Source: Cordylochernes scorpioides (lineage: Eukaryota > Arthropoda > Arachnida > Pseudoscorpiones > Chernetidae). Taken from it: a stretch of 64,000 nucleotides of DNA. The stretch spans positions 66,146,623 through 66,210,622 of the forward strand of contig CP092875.1 in the NCBI GenBank assembly GCA_030710605.1, in the 5' to 3' direction. Below, one piece after another: positions 19,514 through 52,624 of this stretch. The first letter of the stretch is position 1. Every line of letters begins with the position of its first letter. Position numbers and translations under genes: made by a program. The notes beneath the pieces are model-generated. The model ran no database searches and was not told the origin of the DNA. It saw nothing but the letters and a program-made list of their open reading frames with translations.

Positions 19514-19613
19514 NNNNNNNNNNNNNNNNNNNNNNNNNNNNNNNNNNNNNNNNNNNNNNNNNNNNNNNNNNNNNNNNNNNNNNNNNNNNNNNNNNNNNNN
19601 NNNNNNNNNNNNN
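19514..19613. other. Scaffold gap 1 (100 N)
   Basis: Exactly 100 N. The flanks do not belong together: the left flank continues at 52625 and the right flank continues from 52524 (see findings). Confidence 0.95.
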
Positions 19614-19688
19614 TATTTCCTAAGTCTCTTCTGTGGTTGCATATTTTATCTTGTTACGGCAAATGACAATTTTGTTGTGTTCATCCAG

Positions 19689-20622
19689 GAAACGCAAGAT
19701 CTACGACCCTCCGAGGTTTATGACAGTCAGCCAGGCTGCACAGCAACTGCTGGAGATCATTGAGAGGAAGAAGGAAGCTGGAGACTCGGATGATTTAGGT
19801 CTTTATTGTTTTACCTTGTGACAGAATGTCTAAACTGAAATGTGTTATAAAATTACAAATATTTTCTTTTTATTAAAAAAGATACTCATTGTGAGAAAAT
19901 ATTTGTAATTTTAAAACTTTTTTTCACAATTTTATCATGAATTGAAATGTGTTATAACTTGTTTGAAATATCTTTAGTTTTTTTAAAATCCACTCAATAG
20001 AGTAGACCTATTATATATATTGCCTTGAAAATATCAGTTGCCTCCATTCTTTTTCTGATATAAGATATCTTAAGTTATCTTTTATTCTCCTCCTGTCATA
20101 AGGAGATAATTCTCATTAGTAAAATATATATCCTATGTACAGTAGAACCTCCCTTTACAATTTAGAAACTCTCTGGTAAGAGGACACCTCTCCCTAAAGG
20201 ACACTTTGGCTCTGCTATTAGGTGTTCTTTATAGGGAGGTTCTACTGTATTACAAAAACAAACAAAGGAGACAAAGAAACTTATCCTCGGAAGGTTTTTA
20301 TTATTATTTGGATTTCAGTGGATTTTATTTTTTGAACTAGGGATAAATAAAAAAATATATTTTTTGTTCTTGTGCCACCACCACCATGTGTTATTGTGTG
20401 TGTGAAGCGTACACCAAGGACAGTCTGTGTGTGGGACTGGCCAAGGTAGGCAGTGCAGACCAGAGGGTGGTGGCCAGCAGTCTGGAGCAGATGGCCACCC
20501 TGGACCTGGGTCCGCCCCTCCATTCCCTGATCATTGCTGGCAAGCTCCACCCCCTGGAACTGGACATGCTCCGCCTCTTTGCCCTCGATGCCTCCTGTCT
20601 TCAACATGCTGAGCTACATTGA
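19689..20622 (+). CDS. DPH5: DPH5 exons 7 and 8 (haplotype B, completes the gene started at 39142)
   Basis: Exon 7 is 19689-19798, after CATCCAG, encoding KKRKIYDPPRFM, SQAAQQLLEIIERKK and DSDDL. Exon 8 is 20408-20622, encoding YTKDSLCVGLAKVGSADQRV, DLGPPLHSLIIAG, KLHPLELDMLRLF and the end AELH with TGA at 20620-20622. These match the C-terminal part of eukaryotic DPH5. One base carried from exon 7 plus CG makes the junction Ala codon. The donor is GTCTTT rather than GTRAGT. Confidence 0.96.
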
Positions 20623-20673
20623 CCCTCCTCCCTCCTTCGCATTGTAATATATTGTATTATACTTGACATTTTT

Positions 20674-20679
20674 AATAAA
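20674..20679 (+). terminator. DPH5: DPH5 poly(A) signal AATAAA
   Basis: AATAAA 52 bases after the stop codon, within TTTTTAATAAAGTTAC. It is the only canonical hexamer close to the stop. A SINE-D begins about 30 bp further on. Confidence 0.75.
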
Positions 20680-20708
20680 GTTACTTTTGTTAATTTTATA
20701 TTTTAAAA

Positions 20709-20830
20709 TATGTTGTTGTTGTTTCTTATCCCCTTGTGTAAAGATTACATGAATTCCATAAGTTCATGGAATGGGGTGTAGGGCCGCAGCTTTCGTTGAT
20801 CATGGCACCATGATCCAGGCACACTTAAAA
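20709..20830 (-). mobile_element. SINE-D, mirror of 16969-17080
   Basis: Same element in reverse, starting with a GTTGTTGTTG tract and TTTCTTATCCCCTTG and ending GATCCAGGCACACTT. Confidence 0.65.
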
Positions 20831-20895
20831 TATGTAATGGGGTGTTGAGTGAAAATTCTTTCAAAGATTATAGATAAATTTAATTGCCATCTATC

Positions 20896-21222
20896 ATTGA
20901 AATTTTACACATATAAATTTACTGGCAATGCGCTTCTTTTAAATATAATCAAATATTATCTCTACAGACCTTACTTTAAAATTTTACACATATAAATTTA
21001 CTGGCAATGCGCTTTTTTTAAATATCAAATATTATCTCTACAGACCTTACTTTAAAATTTTACACATATAAATTTACTGGCAATGCGCTTCTTTTAAATA
21101 TAATCAAATATTATCTCTACAGACCTTATGCATACCTTATCGTAAGGTCTGTAGAGATAATATTTGATTATATTTAAAAGAAGCGCATTGCCAGTAAATT
21201 TATATGTGTAAAATTTTAAAGA
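20896..21222. repeat. Foldback with one arm amplified to three direct copies
   Basis: TAAAATTTTACACATATAAA-to-ACAGACCTTA units of about 80 bp occur three times in direct orientation, then once inverted. P1 has one copy of each arm (16745-16905), so two extra units arose or persisted only on haplotype B. Confidence 0.75.
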
Positions 21223-21654
21223 TTATAGATACAAGAAAATAAGACCTAATCCAAATAAATTATAACCCAAATTGTGCTTTTATCATATTTCAAAGATTCT
21301 ACACTGATAACTTTTGGTGGTAATGTAAGTGCTGAATGAAAATGCTGATACCCTGGCAGCTGCCAAGTGACAGCCTTGACTTCAAGTCAATCCAGAAGAG
21401 GACTTTTTCAACCTCACTCACCGGTGATAACAACATAGGAGAGATAATCAATACCAACTTGCCCCGTGGAGATGCCACCTGCTTGTCCTGTCTTAAAACA
21501 GGACACACTGGGCATTGAGAGCGTAGTGAAGACCTTTCAAACATGGAATCCACTATAAAAGTCTTGTGTATCATAACCACTTTACGTATAGATATACATA
21601 TCACACATACACTTTATGTATAGTTGTCTCCTTGTGTGTACAATGGTACAAGAA

Positions 21655-22090
21655 AAAAGGACCTAATCCAAATAGTTTAATAGTGTGTGACATTTCGGTA
21701 ACAGCATTGTGTTGTTGTTGTTTCTTATCCCCTTGTGTAAAGATTACACGAATTCCATGAGTTCATGCTCCTCGAGCTGTTTTATGATGAGCAGCGGCCT
21801 CTCCCAAAGGTCCTGTTTAGTGCTTCTAATGCAAGCCAAAATGTGTTCTGGAGCTGCAGGTGCCAAGCTACATTTTGGGCAAGTGGGGTAGATTTTGTTA
21901 TTATTTTCTATCTTCAATGGCTTGAGATGGCCTGTTCTAAATCTTGTTAGTGTTGTTTGATGCTGTCTATTTCTGATGTTCAGAGCTCCTCCTGATCCAT
22001 CAGACAAAAGAAAAAAAAGTTATAAAATAAAAACATTTTTTATTCTTTACCGAAACGTCACACACTATTAAATTATATGGATTATGTCAC
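21655..22090. mobile_element. GTAACA MITE split by a LINE-1 3' end (haplotype B)
   Basis: The MITE arm GGTAACAGCATTGT is interrupted by a minus-strand LINE-1 fragment (21712-21996, same C-terminal frame as 15738-16062). It resumes at CATCAGACAAAAG. Haplotype A has the intact MITE here and its own LINE-1 about 100 bp away, a separate event. Confidence 0.7.
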
Positions 22091-22521
22091 AACAGATCAA
22101 ATTAAAGAAAATTTGTCCATAGTCGCCAAAAGTAAACTTGAAGGACGCTATCAACAACTGTCAACACCAACCACATACAATGGTACAGACACATGTTAGG
22201 TTTACAATTTATTACATATAAACTTTATCCATACACCATTTGCATCCTGGTTTTGTAAAATAAGGAGAAAAAATACATCATGAGAGACATGTTTTTTTAG
22301 CACCAATTTTGATTGGAAAATCTTTATTATTTTTTCAATATTTATTTCCACATTGTGGCAAAAAGGAGGAAAAACCATTGAATTGGTCCAGCCAGCCAAA
22401 TCTTGTAAACAACATCTGAAAATACAAGTTGCTACCATAGTAGAGAATCTAAAAGGAGAAATTTTATTAATAACATACTTCAACTATTTATAACTTATGA
22501 TACAGAGAGAGGTGAGTGGGG

Positions 22522-25500
22522 TCAATGCTGGCTCCACTGGATTGTTTTGATGTCAATACCTTCCTGAACCATCTCCCACAGAGGACTGCGCAACAACCAG
22601 TTGTTTAATACCTACGCAACAACAACCTGAACACAAGTCTTACCTCATCTCTCTGAGTCTCTTCACATGGTAGATGCACTGCTCGGCTGTGTAGTCTACT
22701 TCTTCCTCTGTGGTGAATCTGCTGATTCCAAACCTGCACAGCAACATCTTTAGCTGGAGGAAACCAACATTCAAAGGGATCCAAATTTTCTGTTGAATTA
22801 TATACAGCCATGGTTAGGAACACATGGTAACAAGATTAAATCCAAACAATTTTTTTTTGTTTATCCCTAATACATGTTGTACAGGCCATGGTAATCATGG
22901 CGGGTAGTTAGCGACTGCTTTTACTCTAAGTGCACCACATGTCTATACATGTGAAAATGAAAATCATTCATTAAGCATTTTTGTCTGAAGATGGTGACAA
23001 CGCTGTTACCGAAACTTCTCACACTTTGTTTGGATTTGGTCTGTTGTTGTTGTTTCTTATTCCCTTGTGTAAAGATTACACGAATTCCATGAGGTCATGA
23101 TCTCATGGATTGGGGTATAGGGGTGCAGCTTTTGTTTGATCATGGCATCATGATCCAGGCACACTTTGGTTGGATTTGGTCTTGTTACCTTGTGTTTATA
23201 ATCCAAATTGTGCCTTTATCAGCCATGGTTAGGATGATTATTAATTCAATGCAGCATTCACTGCTATTGGGTGTTCTTCTAGGACATGTCAAAACTGAAG
23301 GAGAGGAGGTATGATTGAATTAAAGTAGGTGTTGAATTACAGAAGGTTAAAGTAAATAGGCTGAATGGAATTTTTTAAAATGGTTGAATTCTTATGTTTT
23401 TAGAAATATAGTCGATTGAATTAAAGATCTAAAGAGACAAAGGTCGCCTCTTCCGTAAAAATAGATGTCAAAACTAGACGCCATCTATTGACGTTTTGAC
23501 ATCTATTTTTACTGGAGAGGCCACCTTTGTCTCTTTAGATCAATATCCTCCCGGCAAAATTTCCATCTATGAATTAAAGATGGTAATTTTAAAGGAGAAA
23601 TGCTTGGGATTTGAAAAAATTGGTTGAATTGAAGAGGTTCTACTGTGCTTTATTGTATACACCAGTATGCATGACCATGATAATCATGTTGGATAGAGAA
23701 CAGAAACTGCTTTTACTGAAAGCAGAACCTAGAAAGTAGTTTGAATTTGCACTTACAAAGTTTAGTTAATGGCACTCTGGTGGGATTGAACTAGTAAGGA
23801 CTAGGAGGAACCATCAAATTAGTTTAAGAAAATGTACACAATGTGATCCCAGGTTGTGTTTATCAAACCAGGCCACTGTAACAACTATATAAAACATTGA
23901 AAGATTCTTAAATAAAAGATCAGGGTTTCAATTTGGACAAAGGTACCTCCTGAGATGTGCAATTGCAAGATGGTACCAAGCTTGCATAGCATTGATGCAG
24001 GCCAACAAAATGTGTTAGTTTTTGAACATTATTGTTTTAAGGAACTATTCAAAAACTGAGTTGGTGTGGCTATTAGAGTATAAAAATGGCAGTAATCATC
24101 TTCCACCAAGAGATGACATTGCTCTCATCCATAGAGTAATATATATAGCAGCCTCTAGCATTATTGCAGTAGAGGAGAATATCATTATTGTGTATGTTGG
24201 CTGAAGATAGTTTTTTTATATCCCTAGTACACGTGGTACAGGCCATGATAATCATGGTGGGTAATAGTTAGCTACTGCTTTTACTGTTAGTGCACCACAT
24301 GTCTAGACATGTAGAAAGCAGTTTGACTTTGGCACTTACAAATGTACCAGAGCTACATTTGGTTTTGTGCACTAAGTGGTGGGGTTGAACTTTTTTAAGA
24401 ATTAAGAACCATTGGAGCCAATTTTTTTTTTTAATTCAGAGAATAAAGTACCACAAATGCAGGATTTTATCCCCAGGTTGTGGTTGTCAAAAATGCATGG
24501 TTTATATCACTCATCCCCAGAAGTGCATGTGTTTGACTTTGATAAATCATCAATTTTGAAGCCTACATATATGGCCCTAAATTCACCTCTTGGGGAAGTT
24601 GCCCCGGAGAGAGCATAGATTTCCCAGGGGGTTGGTGGAAGGGTGGTCAAAACCATTGGTTTTCAACTGCTACGACCTGGGATCAAATCCCAGTATTGGG
24701 CACTTTTTCAAATAAAAAAATAAAAAATTACTGCGATGGCCCCCGATTCTTGCAAAATTCTAACCCCACCCACGAGTGCAAGTAACCAAACGGGGCTCTG
24801 GCACACTTGTAAGTGCAAAAGTCGAACTGCTTTTCACATGTGTAGACATATGATGCACTTACAGTAAAAGCAGTCGCCAACTTCTACCCACCAAGATGAT
24901 TCATGGCCTGTACCACATGTACTAGGGATAATAATAATATAGATTTCCCATGTCAAGGATCAAGTGTTGCTCACCTAATGGAGGAGTGAGCCAGGTCTTC
25001 CTCTGCTCCTATGGCCCTGAGTACATAGGACGGCTCCAGAGAAGCTGATGTACAGGCACTGCAGACAAGCACAACCATACCAAGGTCAGTTCATAGCCAA
25101 CAACTCTTTGATGTCTTAATTTCAAATAATCCGACATCAACAAGATGCCAAATAAAGCAACCAACAAGTAAACAAGATAATGAAATAAAAAACATCTGAC
25201 AAACAAAATGATAAATAAAGCAAAGGAAAAAATGCTAATAAAATAATTTTGCACAATTTTTCTTTTTCCTTTATAAATAAACTTCCTACTGTGATAAAAA
25301 AAAAACTGACAAAACTGCTGGAAGGGTTCACCACTGATGAGCCAAGCCTCCCAATATTTCCCATTGCAATAAGGACATTTTATTTATAAAATAAATAAAA
25401 ATGGTTTCATTTCTTATGCCGAGATGGCACGTTAATGCCTCATGTTATATACAAGATACTTCTTCTTTCTTATCTCCACTCAATCACACTAAGGTATCAA

Positions 25501-28500
25501 GCTTGTAAAGCTTGAGATTTTTTATGGTGTCTGCCGGGGAAGAGTAGAGCTCATCAATGGATGAGTGACAACCATCATGAGGGTAAAGTAGAATGTGTCT
25601 GCCTTTGTCATTAAGACTGGGAGCACTACTAAGTGGCAGGCCGACTTAGCTCTAAAAGAAATGGCCGCCTCTGACATGAGGAACAGACGCCATGTGCAGC
25701 CGCTCCTAACATGGAGTACTGAATAATGCGGGACATGAACAAGATACTGAATAAGGCACTACTCATCAGCATTTACTGAATCCTCTCCAGTGGCGGCTAC
25801 CAATGGATATGAAGAAAGAATGTTGTTTAAACAAGTAAGAATGAGTAAAAATAGATGATTAGGTAAAATTTGGATTATAGATTAGAAACATAAGGTAATA
25901 AGACCAAATCCAAATAACAGCCTTGTTTCCAAAACATCACACACTATTTATTTATTTGGATTGGGTATAATTACCTTGAGTACAAAGATAATTTATAAGT
26001 ATATAAAAGGGCGTACCTGGATCTGTAAAGAAAAAAATATAATAATAATAATTTTTTTCTTAAAATATTTCGATAGATTGCTCCCTCTTTATCAATTTAT
26101 TGATAAAGAGGGAGCAATCTCTCAAAATATTTTAAGAAAAAATTGTTTTGTTTTTTTTTCTTTACAGATCCAGGTACACCCTTTTATATAATCTTAATTA
26201 ATGGATCGCCTTTTGACTCAAAGAATTTACAATGTTAGCAACAAGTTATTAGGTGCTGAGAGGACAAGTATCTATGAAATTGAAAAGTCTTCGGTCTCTC
26301 ATACTAAATTTACTTTCAGTCCATATAACTCCAGGACCTGATTTTCGATCGCTACAACCCAGGTTCAATTCCCGCATTGGGCACTTTTTTCTGAATTAAA
26401 AAATAAAAATGCTCCAATGGCCTCTGATTCTTGCAAAAGTTTAACACCACCAGCAAGTGTATGTAACTAAACGGAGCTTTGGCACATTTGTAAGTGCAAA
26501 GTCAAACTGCTTTTAACCTGTGTAGACATGTGGTGCGCTTATAGTAAAAGCAGTCGCCTACTTCTACGCACCATGGTTACCATGGCTTGTACCACATGTA
26601 CTAGGGATAAGCAAAAAAAAAACTCCAGGACCTTTAGGAGAGGCCGCTGTTTATCATCAAACAGCTCGAGAAGCATGAAGCCATGTAATCTTTACACAAG
26701 GAGATAGGAAACAACAACACTACTTACTCCCCCACATCCCAGACTGGCCCATTGAAGAGCAAGTGCTCACCCCTCATTACCAATAAAAACATAACTTGAA
26801 TCTAATGAACACAAGGTAATAAGACCATATCCAAATAAATAAATAGTGTGTAATTTGGTCTTATTATAGCTTGGGTTTATAATCTATAATCCAAATTGTG
26901 CCTTATCATTGGATCTAATGAGTATTTCCTTTGTCCCATGGCCACAGCAGGAGTGGCTCCATTTACCTGCCAGAGGACAGAGCAATGTCCTTCAAGGCCA
27001 TCAGAAGACTCTCTCCTTCCACGTAGGCAAAGGAAAGATTAAGGCAGCCTGCACCACAAACAGTCAGCACCTAGGACTACTCATTTACCAAGGTAGAGGA
27101 GGCACAGGAGATACCCACTGTAAATAACTCAAAACTAAAAATAGGCAATTAATAGTACCCCATAGTGTCAAACTATCTTCCCAGAACAACATAAATATGT
27201 ACATGGAAAATTTGCCGAGAGGAAATTGATCCATAGAAGCATAGGGCGCCTCTCCCATCAAAATAAACGTCAAAACCTGACGCCATCTATGTTCTAGCCA
27301 TAGATTTGGCCTAGCCACATTGCCAGCAAAACACCTCTTTGGTAGATTGTGAAGATTCCATTAGATCCCGCGTGGATCTCATGGAATAAAGTCCGCCCTA
27401 GACTGACGAGGGCTATTAGCCCGAAACCATGGTCTCTAGGTGGAAGCTTCTCAGTTTGCCAAAGCTGGTGTTGTGGCTTTGTCACTGACCCGAGGCCACT
27501 AGTTGCGGCGACGGTCAATAGATGGCGTCAGTTTTTGACGTTTATTTTGATGGGAGAGGCACCCTATGCTTCTATGGATAAATATGTACATTACAGTAGA
27601 ACCTCTCTATAAAGGACAACATCTATTTGCAGATACAAAGTGTCTTTTTACAGAGAGAGTTTGATACACAGTGATCTTTATTGAAGACAAATGATATAAC
27701 CAAGTATGAACAAAATTGCCTCCATTTTGTGTTCAAAGTAGACTACCAATACCAGTGTCCTTCAAGTTGAGTTCAACTTTTGGTGACTAAATATTCTCCA
27801 ATTTGGTTTGTTAGTGACCATCACTCACAGCTCACATCTAGTGAACATCATCCTCTCTTCTTTCAATTTTTTCCAACATCAATGTCTTTTATAAACCATT
27901 TGCTCTCATTATGTATCTGAAATAGGTCTTTTTTTTTTACCTATTTGGGATTCTACAATGCCAAGTTAAAGATAAGTGATCCTGCACCCATACAAGGATC
28001 CCAATAAAAAGTGCTATTTAAGGATGATAAAAAAAAACAACTAATTAAGCCTTTTTCATTCATAAAAAAAAATGTGCTACAATTAACAGAATGGAAGAAA
28101 GAGGAAATATAAATGATATTTATAGATAGGCTTTTAATTATATCTAAAGAAAAAAAAGGGTTTTTTCCACTTTTAATTCTAAGAATAATATTCTGTTTCT
28201 CAGAAAACTATCTTCTTCTTATCTGCTATCTTGTTTACACACTTGATAACAGTAACTATTTAAAACATGCTGTGGTAAAATTTCTATTATGGGCCCAAAT
28301 TAGCTCAGTTGGTTAGAGTGTCGTGCTAATAACGCGAACGTCGTGGGTTCGATCCCCCCCATGGGCCACTTTTTTTTCTCCCTTGCCACCAGATCGCGGT
28401 CTGCAGCCATGTTGGGGCTAGAAGACCTTACCTGATAGGCCAACTATTTCTCATTCAGTACTTTTGTTTGAAGATGGTAACACCGCTGTTACCGAAACGT

Positions 28501-31500
28501 CACACACTACTTATTTATTTGGATTTGGTCTTATTACCTTGTGCTATTTAAGGAATTCCTTTAAATCTTGGTGAATCTCAAAATCAGATTTTTCTATTTG
28601 CTTTATTTCTAGTTATGGCATGTATCAGAGACACAACAAGGTTCCTTCCAGGGGAATAAAAGAGAGAACAGTCCCTCCCACCTACTTTCTGCCAATGTCC
28701 TACACCTCAAATCACAAGTTGGCCAAGACTTACCAGGATAGGAATGCTCCAGGTCTCCGTTACGGATGACATGGGTCAGCTGGCTGGTGATTTTGTTGAA
28801 GAGTCGATCGGAGAGTGCCTGGACTCTCTTGAAGTCCGACTGGAAACCATGCCATTAGTTAGCTAGAGTTACCGCACCCCACCATGGGAAAGAAGTCACC
28901 ATTAAAGAACAGCAAGAATGGGACAGTAAAATCTACCTACCTCCATTTCTTCCTCAGCAATAGCACAGGCAGTTCCCAGTCCCACCACCAGGGGTGTAGG
29001 TACTGTACCGCTACGCAGGCCCCGCTCCTGGCCCCCTCCGCTGAGCAGAGGCACAAGCCGTACTCGAGGTCTCCTGCGCACGTACAAGGCACCAATCCCC
29101 TTGGGTCCGTAGATCTTGTGGCCACTGATGGAGAGCAGGTCGATGTTCATGTCATTGACATCGATGGGGATCTTGCCCACAGCCTGGGCTGCGTCAGTGT
29201 GGAAGAAGACCTTCTTGCTACGGCAGAGAGCCCCTGCATCACACCATGGTGGACTCCAGTATTCAAATAAATAGCCAATATGCAACTTTGCTGAAGATAG
29301 TAACACTACTGCTGCTGAAATATCACATACTTATTTGGTAGTCCCCCCTGTTATCTTTGATTCTTATCTAATATGCAAATTGTAACCTACCATTCTATTG
29401 GTATTGTAAAAGAATGTTAGAAAGAGTAAAAAAAAATTGGGGGGGGGAGGGATGTTGATTGGTAGACTACTGATAATTGGGACCAACAGTCCCAATTAAT
29501 GTGACCACATATTAAATGGTGGCAGAAGTCAGCAGAGGAAGGAAGATGTGAGGGAAGACTTACCAATCTCTTTGATGGGCTGTTTGACTCCAATCTCATT
29601 GTTGACTGTCATGATGGAGACCAAGCTGGTGTCGGGTGTGATGGCTGTCTCCAGTTTCTGGACATCACATCAGGGAGTCAAACCACATCATTGACTGAAT
29701 TGGCTCATCCACTGATGACACCACCATCAACAAGCTCTACAGGCTTGATACCAAATATGATTGTTAAGTGAAGATAAGAAAGAAGAAGACCTCATATAGT
29801 AGCTGTCTGTGTACAGTATGTGTAAAGTAAGCAAGAACTCTGACTAATGTATATAAGGTTGTCCCAAAAATTCATAAACATCTGCAAAAAATTCCAAATT
29901 TAGGCAAATTTTGATTATTTTTTTTGTGTTTATATTGTCGTGCTGATCTTCACCTTTTGTATTTCAGATAGCAATTGATAAAATGGAGCTGCGAGTTTTG
30001 ATTCGTTACTTCTGGAAGTGAGAACTTTCAACCAGAAAAGCTGCAAAAGAGATTTGTGCTGCCGAAGGTAAAGTAACAATTGCATATGCGGAGATTTCAA
30101 AGTGGTACAAGCGTTTCGATTCAGGCAACAAGAGTCTTGAAGATAAGGTTTGTTCGGGTATGTCATTAATATCGGATGATGGAGACTTACAAACCGGGTT
30201 GGACTTTGAGCCTTCAACGAGTACTCGAGAATTGTCTGATGTGCTTGGAGTTGGCAAATCAACAATTTACCGACACTTGAAACAACTTGATTTCGTTCAC
30301 AAAAAGCCATGCCAAGATCCGCACGAACTCACTGAAGCACAAGCCAACAAATGAGTTTAAATTTGCCATAAATTGCTCGGCAATCCATTGGACGACTGTT
30401 TTAGGAAGCACATTGTGACATTAGATGAGAAATGGGTCTACCTGGTCCAGCACAATCGAGACAAGCGATGGGTTAAGAAAGGGCAAGAGAGATACCATCA
30501 GTTTCAAAACAAGATCGATTCGGCAAGAAAGTGAGGTTGTGAGTTTGGTGGAACTTTGAAGGGATTGTTCATTTTGAGTTGGCTCTGAATGGTCACCCAT
30601 TAATGCCGAATTTTACTGTCAGCAACTGGAGCGGGTCTACGAAAGTTGAAGCAAAAGTACCCGTCTCTGATCAACTGAAAGCGCGCTTTGATGCAGCAGG
30701 ACAAACCACACAGGAAGACCAAAGACAGAGCTGGACGGATTTCTCCCATATCCAGCCTACACTGTGCTCCATCAGATTACGGCCGCTCAATGCAACAACA
30801 CTTTCTGAAGGGCCGGCCGCCAATTCAAATTGTTTAATGAAGTCAAGGAAGCGTGTCAAGAATTCTTTGATTTGAAAGTGGCTGAATGGTACTTTGACCA
30901 GATCCATAAGTTCGCAGATCAATGGAAGAAAGTCATAGAAAATGATGGTCTTTATTTTGAGGAATAAATTTTGTTTTTCTTATTACTTGGCGAATAATAT
31001 TATTACGGTGAATACATAATACAATTACTTTATACATAATAGCGAATAATATAATGCCAAATAATATTGGTGTTTCAATTTTTTTGCAAGTTTTTATGAA
31101 CTTTTGGAACATCCTTGTTAGAGAGATGATCAGATTCTCTCTAAGGAAGTGACACGAAATCCCTATCAGGTCATACAGTTCTGAACAAACAGATTTGTGG
31201 GATATTTATGCTGTCAAACCCAGGAGGGACTGACCTAGGGTAAGACCTGCTGCAAGAGGGGCAGAAGATTGCATCAGACAACATTGACAGATAATCAGAT
31301 TAGGTTTCAATTGGATATTTATTTCTCTCTTTCATACATTTTTGCAGAGTACTTTTTTCATTAAAAACCATAGAGAATAACACTTTGCCAAATGCTTTAA
31401 TTTTATTTTTGCTGATGAGGACACAAGATTTTTGTGGAAATGTTGAGAAAATAAAACTTTTTCTAGCTGAAATGTATCTCTTATGTTAATAAATTCTGAA

Positions 31501-35455: not shown

Positions 35456-35583
35456 TTTATATTAATTTGTAGAAGGGAAATGGTTGAGATTTAGAAAAAT
35501 TGGCTAATCAATGTAAGTCATCAATCATAATCCAGTTGAATTAAAGAATGTATACTGTGTATATTTAATGATTACTATAAAAA

Positions 35584-37761: not shown

Positions 37762-37861
37762 NNNNNNNNNNNNNNNNNNNNNNNNNNNNNNNNNNNNNNN
37801 NNNNNNNNNNNNNNNNNNNNNNNNNNNNNNNNNNNNNNNNNNNNNNNNNNNNNNNNNNNNN
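37762..37861. other. Scaffold gap 2 (100 N)
   Basis: Exactly 100 N between the end of P2 and the start of P3. Since P3 runs into P2 elsewhere, this gap joins the two outer ends of one contig, and its adjacency is unproven. Confidence 0.95.
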
Positions 37862-39141: not shown

Positions 39142-39276
39142 ATGCTTTATTTAATAGGACTAGGATTAGGGGATGCAGAAGATGTATCAGTTAAAGGTCT
39201 TAATATAATCAAAAAAGCGTACAAAATATACCTTGAAGCCTACACCTCATTGCTTACTGTAGGAAAGGAAAAACTG
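39142..39276 (+). CDS. DPH5: DPH5 exon 1
   Basis: 45 codons from ATG (AAAATGC context, A at -3, in-frame stop 12 bases upstream) to KEKL, donor GTATGT. It encodes the LIGLGLGD loop near the SAM site. P4 ends before its allele would appear. Confidence 0.96.
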
Positions 39277-42200: not shown

Positions 42201-45200
42201 TCACACAGCTGATAACAGGGTTGTCTAGGGTGGTTGCTACAGACAGGGTGGTCTGTTTAGACAGGTGGATGTATCACACAGCTGATAACAGGGTTGTCTA
42301 GAGTGGTCGCTATAGACAGGGTGGTCTGTATAGACAGGTGGATGTATCACACTGATGATAACAGGGTTGTCTAGGGTGGTCGCTATAGACAGGGTGGTCT
42401 GTATAGACAGGTGGATGTATCACACAGCTGATAACAGGGTTGTCTAGAGTGGTCGCTCTAGACAGGGTGGTCTGTATAGACAGGTGGATGTATCACACAG
42501 CTGATAACAGGGTTGTCTAGAGTGGTCGCTATAGACAGGGTGGTCTGTTTAGACAGGAGGATGTATCACACAGCTGATAACAGGGTTGTCTAGGGTGGTC
42601 GCTATAGACAGGGTGGTCTGTATAGACAGGTGGATGTATCACACTGATGATAACAGGGTTGTCTAGGGTGGTCGCTATAGACAGGGTGGTCTGTATAGAC
42701 AGGTGGATGTATCACACAGCTGATAACAGGGTTGTCTAGGGTGGTCGCTATAGACAGGGTGGTCTGTATAGACAGGTGGATGTATCACACAGCTGATTAC
42801 AGGGTTGTCTAGAGTGGTAGGGTGGTCGCTATAGACAGGGTGGTCTGTATAGACAGGTGGATGTATCACACAGCTGATAACAGGGTTGTCTAGAGTGGTC
42901 GCTATAGACAGGGTGGTCTGTTTAGACAGGTGGATGTATCACACAGCTGATAACAGGGTTGTCTAGGGTGGTCGCTATAGACAGGGTGGTCTGTATAGAC
43001 AGGTGGATGTATCACACAGCTGATAACAGGGTTGTCTAGAGTGGTCGCTATAGACAGGGTGGTCTGTTTAGACAGGTGGATGTATCACACAGCTGATAAC
43101 AGGGTTGCCGAAAGTGACCGCTATAGACAGGGTGGTCTGTATAGACAGGTGGATGTATCACACTGATGATAACAGGGTTGCCGAAAGTGACCGCTATAGA
43201 CAGGGTGGTCTGTATAGACAGGTGGATGTATCACACAGCTGATAACAGGGTTGCCTAAAGTGACCGCTATAGACAGGGGGGTCTGTATAGACAGGTGGAT
43301 GTAACACACAGCTGATAACAGGGTTGTCTAGTGGGGGGGGCGGGCAGGGAGGTCACGTGTTTGCTGGCGGCCAATGGGCGCGCATTCTATCCGTGAGCTT
43401 CAGACAGACAGACAGAATAAGGCAAATATATAAGTAGATAGTTAAGTTAAAGATTTGAAGTAATTTTTTAAAGGAAAATGTGTTTAGGATTTGAAACATT
43501 GGTTGATTCAGTCAGTTGACTTCAAGAGGTTATACATACATACTGTATATGTGTTCATTATACCAAAATCCACACCCTCCACTAGCCACTATACCAGGAG
43601 AGATGGTTGTTCCAGGAAGAGTACTACGGGAGGGAGATCATCCTGGCCGACCGGGAGATGGTGGAGCAAGGAGCCGGTAAGTGTGCCACAAACCTCCACA
43701 GTACCAAGTCATTGACTGCATCTTTATTCCATCAAACCAAATTCAACATAATGCTAAGTAATTTATAATACAATAGAATGCAGCTTATGATTGTAAAACG
43801 ACATTTAGCAATTATCCCGCATGTGTTTCTTTTGAACGAAAAATCAAAATTTATTTTAAGGAGAAATAACGATTATTTCTAACCTTAGGGATGAATTATG
43901 AAGAGTAATGATAAACGGAAAAATAAAGTGTCCAGGGATGGGAATCATTCAAAAGAAACCTTTGCAGTGAAATTGTCAAACATTGTTCTACAATAGCTAT
44001 ATATATATACTGTGGGTTCGATTCCCATCCCTGGACACTTTATTTTTCTGTTTATCATTACTCTTCACAATTCATCCTTTTATACTTCATCCCTAAGGTT
44101 AGAAATAATCGTTATTTCTCCTTAAAATAAATTTTGATTTTTCGTTCAAAAGAAACACATGCGGGATAATGCTAAGTGTTTACAGTCCTCCAACAATAAT
44201 TCACCACCCCAATGGATCAGAATTTTTGGTTGAAGAGGTTAACTGTATTTACATATGAAGAACTACTGTAAAACATGTTCCATGACACTTCCACTAGAAG
44301 ACACCTCAATACCATTTTCATTGCCAAAATTACAATGTTTGCCAAGTAACTGCTCTCTGGTAAAAGGACACTTCTCTCTATGAAACACTTTGGCTCTGAA
44401 ACTGAGTGTTGTCCTTCTTCTTTCTTATCTCCACTCAATCATATCAGGGTATCAAGCTTTACAAGCTTGATACTCTTGATGGTGTCTGCTGGGGAAGAGT
44501 TGAGCTTATCAATGGATGAGTCAATACAGTCAATAATGTGTTTTGGGGTTGCAGGTTGAGAAGAGTGTTGTCCTTCTTCTTCTTTCTTATCTCCACTCAA
44601 TCATATCAGGGTATCAAGCTTGTAAAGCTTGTTGATGGTGTCTGCCGGGGAAGAGTTGAGCTTATCAATGGATGAGTCAATACAGTCAATAATGTGTTTT
44701 TAGGGTTGCAGGTTGTGAAGAGTGTTGTCCTTCTTCTTCTTTCTTATCTTCACTCAATCATATTAAGGTATCAAGCTAGTAAAGCTTGTTGATGGTGTCT
44801 GTTGGGGAGAGTTGAGCTCATCAATGGATGAGTCAATACAGTCAATAATGTGTTTTTAGGGTTGCAGGTTGTGAAGAGTGTTGTCCTTCTTCTTCTTTCT
44901 TATCTTCACTCAATCATATTAAGGTATCAAGCTAGTAAAGCTTGTTGATGGTGTCTGTTGGGGAGAGTTGAGCTCATCAATGGATGAGTCAATATAGCCA
45001 ATAATGTGTTTTGGGGTTGTAGGTTGTGAAGAGTGTTGTCCTTCAGAGAGGTTGTTCTACTGTATTTCTAACTCTTATTTAATTTCTTCTTTTGGTCACG
45101 AGCACCAAAATGTCACACACTATTTATTTGTATTTGGTCTTATTACCTTTTCTCCTTTTACCTTATATAATCTATAATCCAAATTGTGCCTTATCATAAT

Positions 45201-48200
45201 TTTCAACAGTCAGTTGCAGGATGGGGATGATATTATCATCATTTTTTTCTCTTGATCTTTCTTTCTTTGCTTTTCCCTCAGTTATTGTTGTTCGTATATC
45301 TTTTAACTAAGGATATTTTAATTCTATGTATAATTTATTCATGTTATTTTGTTTCCTTGTTCCAGATGAAATCATAGATGAGGCCAAAGATCATGATGTG
45401 GCATTCTTGGTTGTTGGGGATCCCTTTGGGTAAGTAGTGTGGAATCACACACACAGTTTAAATCCCTTCGTAGAACAGTTCAGGGGAGATGTTCCCCACT
45501 AAATGGTTCGCCTTCCTTGAGTTCTATGAGATCATCTATTTGTTTATCTATCCAGTTCATTCTTGTCCTCTCTCTGTCTCTCCCATTCTGAGGCTGTTAA
45601 ACCCTCCAGACCCAGGTAGAGTAAGTTGTTAGAGCTACCTACCTACATTGTGTCGTTGAAGTGGTATTCTTGGTTATTGGGGATCCCTTTGGGTAAGTAG
45701 TATGGAGTTAGTATAAATCCCCTCATCACTTCAATAGAACAGTTCAGGAGAGATGTTTCCCACTAAATGGTGTGCCATCCATCCTGTCTTGAGTTCCATG
45801 TGATCATCCATTTGTATATCTATCCAGTTCATTCTTGTCCTCTCTCTCTGTCTCTCCTATCCTGAGGCTGTTAAACCCTTCAGGACCTGATAGAGCAAGT
45901 TGTTAGAGCTACCTACCTACATTGTTCCATAGAAGCATAGGGCATCTCTCCTGTCAAAATAAACGTCAAAATTTCCCACCTATACCTACATTGTGCCGTT
46001 GATGTGGCATTCTTGGTTATTGGGGATCCCTTTGGATAAGTAGAGTGGAGTCAGAAAAAACCCCCTCATCACCTCAATAGAACAGTTCAGGGGAGATGTT
46101 TCCCACTAAATAGTTTGCATCTTGTTTTGAGTTCCATGAGAGATCATCCATTTGTATATCTATCCAGTTCTTTCTTGTCCTCTCTGTCTCTCTTATTCTG
46201 AGGCTGTTAAACCCTCCAGGACCTGATAAAACAAGTTGTTAGAGCTACCTACCTACATTGTATCGGTGTTTTCTCCAGTTTCTTGTAACCATCTTCTCTC
46301 GTGATCTCCTCCAAATACATTTATCCTACTCCATTTGATATAAGCTGAGTGGGTTTCACCACTGATGAGCCAGGATCTCTCCCATTATTTTACCATTGAT
46401 TTAGGAAAACTCAACAATAATTTGCCATTGTAGTCAGCCTATTGTTGCTAATTTAAAAAAGGGCTTACAAAACATGTACTCCCAATTCATAGTTGGCACT
46501 CTATGTATCACTATTGTTAAGCACCCATTTATATATACAGTAAAACCCCTCTATAGTGAACCCCATTGGGACGGGACTTTTGGTTCACTATAGCCACGGT
46601 TCACTATAGCCACGGTTTGGGTATTTAAATTTTTTTTAGGATATAATTAAAAGGCATGCGCAAAAAAAAAAAAAAAAAGGCTACCTCTTAATATTGGCTG
46701 CTTTCCCCCCCCCCCCCCCCCCCCCCCTAAATTAACCTATTTCTATATATTAAAGCTGTATATTAAAATAAAAACAAAATCATGTGAAAATATTGCCTTT
46801 TTGATCAGTTCCTCTGATAATTTAATTAGTATAAATGCAACCTGCCCCCCATATGTCAAAAAAATCCAAGAAAAGTATACTTTATATATAAAAATTAAAT
46901 AAAAACTTTATTAATAATATTTTAAAAGGTATAAAAATATATTTTAAATAAATATTATTATATTACAATATAGGATACAAAGGCTTACTTGAAGAAGTCT
47001 GTTATTTTTTTCTGCTTTAACATATTCCTCAAAAATTTGGTTTCATATCTAGCAAAGAAATATTCATTTTTTTAAATTTCTTCTGCAGTGAAGTCACAAA
47101 TTCTAGAATATGTCTTCAACCATTTTAAAGATGACAGCACTTGTGATGATGATGGCATTTCCTCCTCCTCTTCTTCTGGTAAATCAATATCAGGAACATT
47201 TGTAACCATTTTAATAATCTCCTCATCTGTCATTTCAGCGAAGACCTGTTCATTATCATCAACATGGACATATTGCTCAAAATTTGAGGTTGCACGTGAT
47301 ATTTCTTCAAGGCTTAAAAAAATTGTAGAATCTTGTGGGGCTATTTCAGCTTGAAAGCTTCCAAACCCAGACAAGGAAAAGCAATTTACAATAGTTGATT
47401 TAGGGATAGAGTTCCATGACATATTCAACAATTCTATTGAATCAAGCAATGTAATATTTGTTTCTCTATCATTTTCCATGTCTAGAAGGCATCTTTGTAT
47501 CAACCTCATCCTGTATTTTCTTTTAATATCAAGAATAATCCCCATATCCATGGGCTTGACTGTGGCATTGGGGGGGAGAAATACTACCTGAATATTTTCC
47601 AATTTTTCAGGGATGTGGTGTGCTGGACAGTTGTCCAGGATGAGCAGCACCTTTTTATTTTCACTGCCAAAATATTCATCTAAATAGTGAAGATATTTTT
47701 TGAAAATTAAGGCTGTCATCCACGCTGTTTTATTCGCCTCATAATGGGTGGAGAGATTTTTTTATTTTCTAAAACATCGTGGCTTGGCATATTTCCCTAT
47801 AACCAGGAGAGGAAGCTTATCTGAGCCATCCATATTAGTCCCAGCCAAAAAGGTAATTCTCTCCTTGGACCTCTTTGTCCCAGAACAAGTGTCTCCCTTG
47901 AAGGTGAGTGTCTTGTCAGGCAAACATTTATAAAATAATCCTGATTCATCAATATTATAAATATTGGAGGGAGAATACTTGTCCAAAAAAGAAGGAATTT
48001 TCTCTTTCCAATCTTCCACCACCAATGGGTTCACTGCCCTTTCCTCTCCACAAATTTTTCTAAAAATAATATTTCTTCTGGCCTTAAATCTATCAAGCCA
48101 GCCATTACTGGCTTCAAATTCATCATATTTCATACCCATGGTATAATAAATGGCCTTTTGTTGTAAAATGAGTCCAATTAGTGGGATGTTTTTTAGCCTA

Positions 48201-51166
48201 GCTTGTACTAACCACGTATACAAGGCTTCTTCTAAAAGTGGATAATGACACTGACGATAGCGGCAATAGTTGGGATTGATTCCTCTTTGTAGCATTTTTT
48301 TTTATAGTCTTCTTTTTTGCCCCATATCGTAGAAATGCTACTTTTGCTCATTTTCATTTTCTTCCGAAGTTCCGCTTGCGATGTACCACTCTCAATAGCT
48401 TTTATGATGGTTAATTTCTTTTCAAGTGATATCTTGGTACGAGCGACTTTTTCTTTGGCACTTCCATTATCTTTTAAAACTGGTTTTAATAATTCAACCA
48501 TGTTTTAAGGAATTTTCCTAATGTAGAGTTAAGAAATTTAGTTTTCAATAAGGCATGAAAAATTTATAAAAGTGTGCAGTATAAAAATAGAACGTGAATA
48601 AAAACACCCAATGTGGAAGGCTGGTTAAACCGTTTGGTTTACGACCACTACGACCCGGGTTCGATCCCCACATTGGACACTTTTTTCTGTTTAAAAAAAA
48701 AAATGCTCCAATGGCCCCCCGATTCTTGCAAAAGTCCAACCCCACCAGCGAGTGCAAGTAACCAAACGGGGCTCTGGCACATTTGTAAGTGCAAAGTCGA
48801 ACTGCTTTCACATGTGTAGACATGTGGTGCGCTTACAGTAAAAAAGCAGTCGCTAACTACCCACCATGATTATCATGGCCTGTACCACGTGTACTAGGGA
48901 TAAGCAAAAAAATAAAAAATTCTTTGTTTTGAATTGCGATCTGTGAGCTAGAGCTCACACAAAATTTTAATTAGTTTTGAAAATTATAATTTTGGAATTT
49001 TAGAATTAAAATTAAAAGTTTGTTATAAGCATGGTATTTTTGGATAGAATTTAATATTTTGGGACCAAAATTGGGTTCGTTATAGCGATAGTTCGCTAGT
49101 TTGAAAAGTGAAAAGTTTGTTATAACGATGGTAATTTTAATGGAATGGAATTGGGATTTTCGATGGGTTCGTTATAAGGGAAGGTTCGTTATATCCATGG
49201 TTCGTCTTAGCGGGGTTTTACTGTATATATATATTAGATAATAAAAAGGCATATATTGGATTTAATAAGAAACAAAATTAGAAACACATTGTTAATAAAA
49301 AATTAATGAATTAATGGAGAGAAATAGAATCTTCAGAGATCTAAATAACAATAATTATCAAAGCAAATTTATCGAAAAACATTTTTTTAAAACAAAATCT
49401 TCACCTTTAAATTACACCCCTGATCAATCAAAAAAGCTTTACTGCTCCCTACAGCTGCTCCATACAGCTACGGCTCTGAACGCATCACCAAAGTCCTAAA
49501 GAGACACAACATCATAACTACCTATCAATCATCTTTAAATTTAAAAAGACCCTACACCATCCAGACACTAAGCAAATTAACAAAATATAAAACAAAATAA
49601 ACGTAGTTTACAAAATTCCTTGTAACAATTGTCAAGCCAATTACATAGGTGAAACCAGTAAACCACTCAAAGATCGTATAAATCAACACAAATCAGGATT
49701 GAGAAATTATAACCCACTGTCTCTCCTTGTAGATCATGCACTGAACAACAACCACACGCCGGACTTTGAAAATACAACTATCCATTTGCTTTCATTAGGT
49801 GTCCAAAATAGCCTAAGTCTTTACATATTTAGGGATTCTAAGAATGGACTACCTGGGTGTATAGGATGATACCATAATCTCTTATTACCTAGGGATATAT
49901 GAATGCTTACACATTAATGATAGCCATATGACAATGTAGAATATCTGTTTGGCTAACAATGTTGTCATGTGACAGAGCAACTACCCACACAGACCTGGTT
50001 CTCCGAGCCCAGGAGAAATCTGTCCCTTACTCTGTGGTCCACAATGCCTCGATCTTGTCTGCTGTGGGTTGCTGCGGACTCCAGGTTAGTTGGGGACTGT
50101 ACCAGCCAATTTTTAGAACCACGGTTATAACAATTGGGACTTTTAAACAAGATACCTTAGAAAGTTATGACCAAGCTGCTGAGAGGTTCCACTGTCCTTG
50201 GTTGTAGTATCCTTGCTGCCATCACCTGACCCCGGGGAGTACAGAATGTGGAGGGAATACTAAGTCCTCTACTACACTAGAACATACTCCATGAGAGGAG
50301 GACACTCTTGCCAAGATCACCAATTTTACTAATTAGAAACTCCAGTAAGAGGACACTCCCCTCTCCCTAAAAGACACTTTGGGTGGGGAAAAAGTTGCCC
50401 AAAGTTCACCCAATTCCACAAGAAACCATTCTCACCTGACCCTTCACTGCATTGTCCCAGATAAATTGGGTCTTTGTATCCACATAGTGTAATAGACCTC
50501 ATCAACACCCTTTGTCTTCTTCAGCTTCCAAATTTCAGTCATTGGGAAGATGATGTATAGTACTATCCAGAATTTTTTTATGTACAAGTTGTCATTTTTT
50601 TGTCATATCTACAGTAGAACCTTGTTATAACAGCACACAACTTGGTGAAAACATTATAATTCTAAAGTTTCTACAAGAAGAAAAAACCTAATCCATTTAG
50701 GTCTTATTTTCTTGTAGCTCTAATCTATCATTCAAATTGTGCTTTATCATATAAAGTCTCTGGTTTTAAGTCCCAAATGTTTTAGCCATAGTTATAACAT
50801 CAACATGGTTATAACATCAAATCAAACAGTGTCAGAAAGGTTTCACTGTATTTGGTGTACTCTAACTGTAAAAAAAATCCCCTTTAAGAATAAATAAATG
50901 AATGGTACTGGAATATTCTGTGAAGAGATTGGTTATGTGTGTGTCCAGCTCTATTCATTCGGGGAGACAGTGTCCATTGTATTCTGGACGGAGGATTGGA
51001 AGCCGGACAGTTTCTATGACAGAATCCTGGCCAATAGGAAGAGAGGACTTCACACCTTGTGTCTCATGGGTTCGTAGTCCAGTGTTGCTAGTCTCCTTTC
51101 TCACCAGCACTCTGTGACTGCAACAGATCTCAAGATAAAAGAACAAACCATTGAGAACATGATGAA
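39142..51166 (+). CDS. DPH5: Diphthine methyl ester synthase DPH5, exons 1-6 (haplotype B)
   Basis: SAM-dependent methyltransferase of the cytosol that modifies the 3-amino-3-carboxypropyl histidine on eEF2, making diphthine methyl ester in diphthamide synthesis. Exons: 39142-39276, 43616-43676, 45366-45429, 49976-50084, 50949-51069, 51127-51166. All junctions keep frame. Landmarks are the N-terminal MLYLIGLGLGDAEDVSVKGL, LEAYTSLLTVGKE, VAFLVVGDPFGATTHTD, VVHNASILSAVGCCGLQ and FGETVSIVFWTEDWKPDSF, all typical of DPH5. With exons 7-8 at 19689-20622 the protein is 284 residues, close to the human length of 285. The scaffold gap at 52525 falsely separates exon 6 from exon 7. Confidence 0.97.
39562..39815. 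mobile_element. GTAACA MITE remnants in DPH5 intron 1
   Basis: One decayed foldback (39562-39705, GACACAATTTGAATTATATA ... GGGATTTGGTCTTGTTA) and a half copy (39735-39815). A diverged AATTCAACAC-type MITE follows to about 40130. Confidence 0.5.
40202..40250. repeat. GC hairpin CCCGGGCAACGCCCGGG at the minisatellite edge
   Basis: ACTAGACGAAAGGCCCGGGC followed by AACGCCCGGGG makes a strong GC stem in AT-rich DNA. On the far side of the array (43331-43420) lie a G run, GGCCAATGGGCGCGC and CAGACAGACAGACAG. The two could be the ends of one dispersed element in which the tandem array expanded. Confidence 0.45.
40265..43331. repeat. 73-bp minisatellite, ~42 units, in DPH5 intron 1
   Basis: The unit is 73 bp (for example starts at 42601 and 42674). 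It contains GCTATAGACAGGGTGGTCTG, TATAGACAGGTGGATG, TATCACACAGCTGATAACAG and GGTTGTCTAGGG. Variants at fixed sites (TATAGAC/TTTAGAC, CACAGCTG/CACTGATG, TCTAGGG/TCTAGAG/CCGAAAG) recur in order through much of 41640-42960, giving a partial three-unit (219-bp) higher-order repeat. Open frames inside it are repeat artefacts. Confidence 0.95.
43616..43676 (+). CDS. DPH5: DPH5 exon 2
   Basis: 61 bp encoding EEYYGREIILADREMVEQGA plus one base. Acceptor TTGTTCCAG, donor GTAAGT. It lies just 3' of the minisatellite intron. Confidence 0.93.
43811..44172. repeat. Foldback made of two inverted SINE-B-like halves
   Basis: Arms of about 150 bp run from ATTATCCCGCATGTGTTTCT to its complement AACACATGCGGGATAAT. 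Each arm contains AAATAATCGTTATTTC or its complement, and CCAGGGATGGGAAT next to box B-like GGGTTCGATTCCCA. The spacer has an AT microsatellite. Confidence 0.7.
44265..45062. mobile_element. MITE-P carrying four tandem LINE-2 3' tails
   Basis: A MITE-P (ACTGTAAAACATGTTCC ... GAGGTTGTTCTACTGTA) is expanded by four ~156-bp units, each TTCTTCTTTCTTATCTYCAC ... GGGTTGCAGGTTG, with GAGTGTTGTCC at every junction (44408, 44563, 44721, 44877, 45033). The haplotype A allele (62785-63330) has three units. Confidence 0.75.
45366..45429 (+). CDS. DPH5: DPH5 exon 3
   Basis: 64 bp encoding DEIIDEAKDHDVAFLVVGDP-FG with the conserved VVGDPFG motif. Donor GTAAGT. Its 3' half and donor are duplicated twice downstream (about 45665 and 46010). 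Confidence 0.95.
45400..46300 (+). repeat. DPH5: Partial triplication of DPH5 exon 3 and intron 3 start
   Basis: Three ~300-bp units begin with the 3' half of exon 3 (GTGGCATTCTTGGTT..TTGGGGATCCCTTTGG) and its donor, then about 250 bp of intron ending GTTAGAGCTACCTACCTACA. Unit 1 holds the real exon. Units 2 and 3 (about 45665 and 46010) lack an acceptor. Unit 3 has a changed donor (GGATAAGT). The same three units occur in P4 (61560-62490). Confidence 0.8.
47072..48501 (-). pseudogene. Tigger-like transposase with one frameshift and one stop
   Basis: About 476 codons. The N-terminus has a CENP-B/Psq-type helix-turn-helix (KISLEKKLTIIKAIESGTSQ, then SKSSISTIWGKK) and a second DNA-binding helix set with NGWLDRFKARRNI. 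The DDE_1 domain follows with its three acidic sites: YNIDESGLFYK, LLILDNCPAH and PPNATVKPMDMGI. One base is gained or lost in an A run near 48300, and TAA at 47762-47764 interrupts the frame. The acidic C-terminus (EEEEEEM) is usual for the family. The few lesions suggest recent activity. Confidence 0.85.
48609..48911 (+). mobile_element. SINE-A nested in the Tigger element
   Basis: Head GTGGAAGGCTGGTTAAACCG, box B GGGTTCGATCCCC, tail GATAAGCAAAAAAATAAAA. It lies between the transposase start and the right terminus, so it is younger than the Tigger insertion. Confidence 0.85.
49226..49870 (+). pseudogene. Penelope-like retroelement fragment with GIY-YIG domain
   Basis: The plus strand reads VYKIPCNNCQANYIGETSKP, LKDRINQHKSGLRNYNPLS, HALNNNHTPDFENTTIH: the C-terminal GIY-YIG endonuclease pattern of Penelope-like elements (YIGET, then R..QHK). 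The upstream linker is broken by stops. The allelic copy is at 56240-56878, minus. Insertion predates haplotype divergence. Confidence 0.75.
49976..50084 (+). CDS. DPH5: DPH5 exon 4
   Basis: 109 bp encoding ATTHTDLVLRAQEKSVPYSV and HNASILSAVGCCGLQ. Acceptor ATGTGACAG, donor GTTAGT. The intron before it carries the Tigger and Penelope insertions. Confidence 0.95.
50611..50850. mobile_element. Tigger-type MITE with nested GTAACA-MITE end
   Basis: ACAGTAGAACCTTGTTATAA and GAAAGGTTTCACTGTA flank AACATCA..TTATAAC inverted blocks. A small ACCTAATCC/GGATTAGGT piece is inside. In P4 that piece has become a 25-bp tandem array (54045-54535). Confidence 0.65.
50949..51069 (+). CDS. DPH5: DPH5 exon 5
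   Basis: 121 bp encoding LYSFGETVSIVFWTEDWKPD through RGLHTLCLM plus one base. The donor is GTTCGT, atypical but needed by the frame and by homology (CLxDxKxKEQ). Confidence 0.94.
51127..51166 (+). CDS. DPH5: DPH5 exon 6
   Basis: 40 bp encoding DLKIKEQTIENMM plus two bases. The preceding intron is only 57 bp. Donor GTAAGT. It splices in phase to exon 7 at 19689. Confidence 0.92.
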
Positions 51167-51291
51167 GTAAGTGGTGACCCCCTTCTTACCTATATTTCTA
51201 CTTTAGTTCCCATCACACAATACATATCAAATAGGTTGTTTGCCCTAATGAGAGAGCATCTTCTGGTTATATAATTGAAAGGTTACTGATA

Positions 51292-51456
51292 CAGTAAAAC
51301 CTCCCTGTAAAGGACACCTAATTTCAAAGCCAAAGTGTCCTTTAGTCAGAGGTGTCCTTTTACTGGAGAGTTGCTAAATTGTAAAAATGGTAATTTTGCA
51401 AATGAAAATTGTCCTTTGTAGAGAGGTGTCCGCTAAAGGGAGGTTCTACTGTAGTT
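51292..51456. mobile_element. MITE-P in DPH5 intron 6
   Basis: TACAGTAAAACCTCCCTGTA and GGGAGGTTCTACTGTA enclose inverted GTCCTTTA/TAAAGGAC blocks. The allelic copy is at 53291-53472. Confidence 0.7.
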
Positions 51457-51539
51457 GTGGATCTATTAATAAAGACATCAAGTGAACATTGTTATGTGGA
51501 TTTCTGGAAATGATAGCCACCCATTGTTGTTGTTAGTGT

Positions 51540-51780
51540 ACATCAAGTTGACTTTTGGTAACAATGCAGACAGATATTCTCCGATTTGATGTGTTAGTCA
51601 CTCACAGCTTATCTAGAGACCTTCTGGTAGCTTCCTAGACCCCTTACAGCTAACTCATTAGAGATGTTCCTTCTTCCTTCAATTTTTCCATTATCAACAT
51701 CTTTTATAATCCATTTGCTCTCAATATCCAAAGTAGGTCAGTCTTTGTTTACATATATTTGGGATCTACCAGGATTGATT
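51540..51780. repeat. Dispersed repeat E
   Basis: CATCAAGTTGACTTTTGGTA ... CATCTTTTATAATCCATTTG. Related copies lie at about 10290-10440, 16080-16150, 22100-22180 and 27770-27910. It is also split between 19383-19465 and 53066-53200, where the two parts match this locus on either side of the P1/P4 join. Confidence 0.6.
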
Positions 51781-52146
51781 TCATTTGAGATTGAAATATT
51801 TGTTCTTTTATCTGTCTATGGCTCTGAGTAGCTTTCACCATGTCCACATTTTATTTAATGGGTCATTAATATATAGCCTGTACCATGTTGACAGTCTGAT
51901 TTACCTACATGGGGTTGTGAGACTTTTCTTGATTCAACAGGAATTTTTTTTTGTCAGTGCAGTAGAACCTCCTTGAGAGGACACCTCTCTACAAAGGACA
52001 GTTTTCATTAGAAAACTAAATTGATCTATATTGAGAAAGCAAACTAAATTTACTTTTTAAACTAAATGAACAAGCACTTTCTAGAAACTTGATTTGGAGT
52101 GAACTTGTACATGGTGTGTGAATGTTGTTGTATATATATATTTTTT

Positions 52147-52455
52147 GCTTTTCCCTAGTACACGTGGTACAGGGCATGATTCTCATGGTGGGTAGAAGTT
52201 GGCGACTGCTTTTACTGTAAGTGCACCACGTGTCTAAACTTGTGAAAAGCAGTTTGACTTTGCACTTACAAATGTGCCAGAGCTCCTTTTGGTTACTTTT
52301 ACTTGCTGGTTGGTAGGGTTGGACTTTTGCAAGAATCGAGGGCCATTGGAGCAATTTTTTTTTTTTAAATCTGAAAAAAAGTGCCCAATGCAGGAATCGA
52401 ACCTGGTTTGTACGGCCGAAAACCGACAGTTTAGACCATCCTTCCACCGACCCCT
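52147..52455 (-). mobile_element. SINE-A in DPH5 intron 6 (haplotype B)
   Basis: Allele of 18246-18560. The head carries the same unusual GTACGGCCGAAAACC. It lies 70 bp before the gap. Confidence 0.8.
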
Positions 52456-52524
52456 TATCATTGTATGGTTCTATATAATGGACAAAACATAAGTTTGCCA
52501 TGTTTTTGTTCTCCTTTTACTATC

Positions 52525-52624
52525 NNNNNNNNNNNNNNNNNNNNNNNNNNNNNNNNNNNNNNNNNNNNNNNNNNNNNNNNNNNNNNNNNNNNNNNNNNNN
52601 NNNNNNNNNNNNNNNNNNNNNNNN
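52525..52624. other. Scaffold gap 3 (100 N)
   Basis: Exactly 100 N placed inside DPH5 intron 6. The left side truly continues at 19614 and the right side truly follows 19513. Confidence 0.95.

Follow-up and report, generated by a model that had tools for sequence, protein, structure and literature searches.

The DNA analysed here, called the window throughout, comprises 64,000 nucleotides of Cordylochernes scorpioides (assembly GCA_030710605.1, contig CP092875.1, positions 66,146,623 to 66,210,622, forward strand). It raises the question of whether its pieces are written in the order that they have in the genome. Our answer is that they very probably are not. The window appears to hold two allelic sequences in the wrong order, namely A, in which the first piece (P1) runs on into the fourth (P4), and B, in which the third piece (P3) runs on into the second (P2) on the opposite strand.

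Layout of the window

Three runs of N were found in the window, each exactly 100 long, which bears out the 100-N fillers described in an earlier note on this DNA. Gaps of 100 N are used by scaffolders other than HiRise as well. The window is divided as follows, the end test being the joining control described below.

1–19513, plus strand: P1, left piece, haplotype A, continues into P4 (colinear chain, end test)
19514–19613, no strand: 100-N gap, false join of P1 and P2, a fold-back (no homologous window sequence across the seam)
19614–37761, minus strand: P2, one half of haplotig B, reverse-oriented counterpart allele of P1, comes after P3 (piece comparison, chain, end test)
37762–37861, no strand: 100-N gap where the outer ends of haplotig B meet (no window sequence crosses the gap or bears on the true neighbours)
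37862–52524, minus strand: P3, second half of haplotig B, reverse-oriented counterpart allele of P4, comes before P2 (piece comparison, chain, end test)
52525–52624, no strand: 100-N gap, false join of P3 and P4, a fold-back (N run, end test)
52625–64000, plus strand: P4, right piece, haplotype A, continues P1 (colinear chain, end test)

P1 and P4 extend past the window, the left end of the former and the right end of the latter being window ends and not piece ends of the assembly, and P2 (18,148 bases) and P3 (14,663 bases) are bounded by gaps at both ends. All three gaps lie on one scaffold and border both copies, as in heterotype false duplication. On the two sides of the middle gap, a Pfam scan of the minus strand only (37862–40200 and 35700–37761) found no family at E ≤0.01.

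Colinearity and divergence of the two copies

In an all-against-all comparison of the pieces, P2 matched P1 in reverse, the right end of P3 matched the right end of P1 in reverse, and the rest of P3 matched P4 in reverse. With P1+P4 taken as A (30,889 bases) and P3+P2, reverse-complemented, as B (32,811 bases), the best colinear chain between the two has 93.4% identity over 19,067 columns and extends from the first base of A to within 148 bases of its last. It covers only ~60% of A, the other ~40% being unaligned in stretches between aligned blocks. B overhangs the A of the window by 1,125 and 6,304 bases at the ends, and further internal stretches of B are unaligned. The unaligned stretches of A and B look like insertions private to one copy. 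Substitution rates are similar between P1 and P2 (4.02% over 13,242 columns), P1 and P3 (4.37% over 847) and P4 and P3 (4.78% over 4,497).

The two copies are thus colinear over all of their comparable sequence, with allele-like divergence, as in heterotype false duplication, a rate which by itself cannot separate alleles from an old duplication. The divergence would match that of two alleles in a very heterozygous genome, and an old duplication would look alike. With ~4–5% substitutions and many unaligned stretches, A and B would therefore have been kept apart by the assembler.

Other features of the window include a repeat of ~310–320 bases, found at 1809–2132 and in at least about 20 further places, some of them partial, in all four pieces and both orientations; among the matches listed, the copies are roughly 75–98% alike. 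P1 also carries class-V aminotransferase exons (Pfam Aminotran_5; 3131–3271 and 8982–9272), which we take to be probably those of the cysteine desulfurase NFS1, with allelic open frames in P2 and no gap inside the exons.

Joins supported by homologous sequence

The earlier note had proposed that 52524 joins 19614 and that 19513 joins 52625. At the former join, P3 ends in TTTTACTATC and P2 starts with TATTTCCTAAG, and P1 contains TTAGGAAATAGATAGTAAAA, which occurs once on the plus strand of the window.

18171–18190, plus strand: P1 sequence running unbroken through the join of P3 and P2 (exact match, end test)

As had been claimed, P1 is unbroken here: across 18180 and 18181 it reads, base for base, as the reverse complement of the P3 end running directly on into the P2 start, with nothing lost or inserted. 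A single alignment between A and B (A 16823–18936) passes straight through the join. When the 300-base sequence over the join was searched against the window, P1 was the only match across the seam (300 columns, 94.7%, no gap near the seam), and therefore no repeat tangle is seen there.

At the join in haplotype A, P1 terminates in TTACATTTC and P4 starts with GGTAACAGCATTGTTACC. A stretch of 492 bases, with the join 59 bases in, has no counterpart in B, so B cannot vouch for the join and the A seam rests on repeat copies. Put together, the end of P1 and the start of P4 read as a single unbroken GTAACA repeat copy.

19465–19513, plus strand: left part of the GTAACA copy spanning P1 and P4, start approximate (repeat matches, end test)
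52625–52648, plus strand: right part of the same copy, end approximate (repeat matches, end test)

Fifteen window matches extend 15 bases or more past this seam in both directions, and 14 of them are free of gaps within ~10 columns of it. The 14 matches listed, of the 15, are 75–89% identical, several are gapped elsewhere, and they group by hand into ~11 places, some of the matches being the two arms of one element. Since some of the places are allelic to each other, they are not independent. The two ends had been described as one GTAACA MITE; the continuous repeat copy stands, with 14 of the 15 crossing matches ungapped near the seam, though it need not be a complete MITE. The repeat called E in that description is indeed colinear with P3 on both sides of the join (P1 19339–19454 with 51778–51672, and P4 from 53058 onward with 51671 onward). 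Two further signs at this seam were given little weight: an 11-base inverted repeat (AAGACTACAAG) that spans it, and the folding of the joined 98-mer, whose −11.8 kcal/mol was not reached by any of 200 shuffles (mean −4.61). The reason is that, among 3000 random pairs of 80-mers, 18 showed an inverted match of that length or longer.

For the end test, eight oriented pieces were each joined to each, giving 64 ordered pairs with self-pairs included. The query consisted of 150 bases from each side of the seam and was searched within the window only at E ≤0.01, with at least 15 bases required per side. A seam-crossing match was obtained in 8/64 pairs. In four it was ungapped near the seam, and these are only the two proposed joins, each on both strands. 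The other four—the fold of the P1 right end, the fold of the P4 right end and the joined window ends on both strands—were all gapped near the seam. For the joins as written, P1 to P2, P2 to P3 and P3 to P4, the window contains no seam-crossing homologue at E ≤0.01. The written joins are hence without support and the alternative ones are supported, as a scaffold order error would have it. We regard the adjacencies of P3 with P2 and of P1 with P4 as shown at the level of the sequence.

Reconstruction of DPH5

Both proposed joins also pass a gene-model test on DPH5. The parts of this gene in P3, P4 and P1 were found with NCBIfam TIGR00522, the exons in P2 were located via their P1 counterparts, and splice sites were set by hand.

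39142–39276, plus strand: DPH5 haplotype B exon 1
43616–43676, plus strand: DPH5 haplotype B exon 2
45366–45429, plus strand: DPH5 haplotype B exon 3
49976–50084, plus strand: DPH5 haplotype B exon 4
50949–51069, plus strand: DPH5 haplotype B exon 5
51127–51166, plus strand: DPH5 haplotype B exon 6, last before the break
19689–19798, plus strand: DPH5 haplotype B exon 7, first after the break
20408–20622, plus strand: DPH5 haplotype B exon 8, with stop
62427–62490, minus strand: DPH5 haplotype A exon 3
56086–56194, minus strand: DPH5 haplotype A exon 4
53688–53808, minus strand: DPH5 haplotype A exon 5
53591–53630, minus strand: DPH5 haplotype A exon 6
17996–18105, minus strand: DPH5 haplotype A exon 7
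17169–17383, minus strand: DPH5 haplotype A exon 8

Exons 1–6 from P3 and exons 7–8 from P2 together encode a 284-residue protein that ends in a stop. It scores 312.6 bits against TIGR00522 over profile positions 1–255 of 258 (curated cut-off 114.3), and is thus a full-length member of the family, compared with 242.2 bits for exons 1–6 (P3, 176 residues) and 65.0 bits, below the cut-off, for exons 7–8 (P2, 107 residues). The corrected order therefore restores the gene, as expected of a scaffold order error. The closest solved structure to this protein is the diphthine synthase PDB 3i4t (E 8.5e-82). Where the intron that bears the join starts, ATGATGAA is followed by GTAAGT; where it ends, CCAG is followed by GAAACGC. 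In both haplotypes the exons flanking the join together complete a codon, and the GT-AG sites and the phase agree.

In haplotype A, exons 3–8 were found, of which exons 4–8 translate together to the same stop with no internal one; exons 1–2 are expected to lie beyond position 64000. Exon 7 gave no match when its stretch (17900–18180, minus strand) was scanned by itself against Pfam; what identified it was a match to 3i4t (E 0.00028) together with its position in the complete gene. The split of DPH5 in both haplotypes, also claimed earlier, is confirmed: TIGR00522 matches in pieces, with exons 1–6 and 7–8 of B apart, and likewise exons 3–6 and 7–8 of A. In the written order, two 3′ halves stand back to back around the first gap, two 5′ halves point towards each other at the third, and no complete DPH5 is left in the window.

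The span of the gene also holds repeats. In haplotype B, intron 1 contains a 73-base satellite in P3 (40401–43331; 40.0 copies, 92% match), and a Tc5/pogo-like transposase (46400–49400, minus strand; Pfam DDE_1 and HTH_Tnp_Tc5) lies between exons 3 and 4. The latter stretch is skipped by the colinear chain, and the matching interval of A (56883–61313) has other open frames, among them one near 59141–59962 that is presumably mariner-like. Tandem units of ~270 bases carry copies of the end of exon 3 (45394–46268 and 61585–62462), with partial copies besides the full exon at 46000–46035 and 45661–45692 in B and at 61853–61818 and 62200–62165 in A. This arrangement suggests that part of exon 3 had already been multiplied within DPH5 when A and B began to diverge. 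Between exons 5 and 4 of haplotype A, P4 contains a 25-base tandem array (54050–54535; 19.4 copies, 98% alike) that is nearly all skipped by the colinear chain; the tandem-repeat scan listed none such for P3.

Origin of the written order

The case is an assembly error and not biology, an artefact of a known kind. Two alleles would have been assembled as separate haplotigs, B as one of 32.8 kb and A as a longer contig. Each would then have been broken within the same DPH5 intron, the two break points lying 1,333 bases from each other on A; a long-range scaffolder with a break step is the probable agent. As the four broken ends originate at one place, their partners could be mispaired: the scaffolder would have joined P1 to P2 and P3 to P4 and padded the swapped ends with fixed 100-N fillers, creating two fold-back joins and placing haplotig B within A in inverted, circularly permuted form. 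The joins of P1 with P2 and of P3 with P4 are fold-backs at one homologous spot and amount to one reciprocal partner swap. P2 and P3 seem to make up a single haplotig of 32,811 bases, divided into two halves, with its outer ends brought together at the gap at 37762; a simple partner swap does not account for this outer join.

As to the trigger, the break points in A and B are non-homologous. Local repeat density found no support, neither break lying in an unusually repetitive stretch: within-haplotype repetitiveness was 0.470 at the A break (34.4% of comparison windows at least as repetitive) and 0.322 at the B break (59.9%). Restriction-site cutting was considered by eye only, and no GATC or AAGCTT is present at the seams. 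Assuming that B is whole, the lengths of P3 and P2, which are not round numbers, speak weakly against bin-wise breaking.

As the earlier note had proposed, the breaks are probably cuts in continuous contigs and not natural ends, since the ends abut to the base and lie at places that do not correspond between the haplotypes, which is more readily expected of cutting. A rather unlikely account, which leaves the correct order unchanged and disputes only the cutting step, is that the pieces were never cut and are zero-overlap edges of an assembly graph that ended at a tangle and were mispaired by the scaffolder. Graph edges without overlap abut to the base in some assemblers. The base-exact abutment is what such edges would give, and the A end does sit in a multi-copy repeat; however, the 300-base sequence over the B join is crossed by P1 only, with no repeat tangle seen there, and the haplotypes end at non-homologous places, separated by the 1,333 bases of A given above.

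That P1+P4 and P3+P2 are alleles is what we infer. It is improbable that they are instead an old inverted segmental duplication, of which only the scaffold order would be wrong. The 4–5% substitutions and many unaligned stretches suit an old duplication as well as high heterozygosity, and the DPH5 exons found are open in both copies. Yet the copies are colinear one to one over all comparable sequence, both are broken inside one intron, and no separate flanks are seen within the window, the flanks lying outside it.

The written order itself could be genuine if haplotig B were an inverted, circularly permuted duplication inside A that breaks DPH5 twice, for instance a circle of the locus cut out of one haplotype, linearised within the DPH5 intron and inserted backwards into the other. 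P1-P2-P3-P4 is formally such a re-inserted circle and the alignment does not contradict it, but this is highly improbable, as all three would-be rearrangement points are 100-N fillers that no sequence spans, each of the two alternative adjacencies is continuous to the base, and the window would be left without an intact DPH5. We also rejected a true palindrome, since its folds would all fall at 100-N gaps and the sequence runs on base by base over the two alternative seams.

Relation to described assembly errors

The preferred reading, a mis-ordered scaffold of one heterozygous locus, has close relatives. Heterotype (haplotypic) false duplications on one scaffold, with split genes, were described by Ko et al. 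2022 (PMC9516828). As in that description, two diverged alleles are kept separate, often on one scaffold beside gaps, and genes are falsely doubled or split; unlike it, both copies are here also broken near the same spot and partner-swapped into two fold-backs.

HiRise sets gaps to 100 Ns (PMC5982815) and breaks contigs judged misassembled before scaffolding; contigs that it falsely broke are mentioned in PMC5411772, which also calls it very conservative in breaking contigs and whose authors insert 100 N themselves as well. The present case resembles long-range scaffolding with a break step and fixed 100-N gaps, of which HiRise is one example, in that all gaps are exactly 100 N and the ends abut to the base. 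The gaps would fit HiRise output, 100 N not being unique to one tool. According to a Hi-C benchmark (PMC13085270), haplotigs disturb scaffolding, break steps may err, and most Hi-C scaffolders leave haplotigs out. Here, as in its cases, two sequences for one location confuse the ordering and break steps can cut good contigs; in contrast to the haplotig omission reported there for most scaffolders, one was placed in the scaffold. Among titles and abstract openings, no description of such a partner swap, with an inverted or interleaved haplotig order, was found, and one may still be in print.

Consequences for users of the assembly

The end-joining check requires no reads: all pairs of piece ends are tried, and it is asked which seams are crossed by homologous sequence. 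It flags partner swaps between haplotigs. Users of this assembly would meet DPH5 only as half genes, together with two false inverted duplications and false synteny breaks. The artefact is useful for them to know and of little wider interest.
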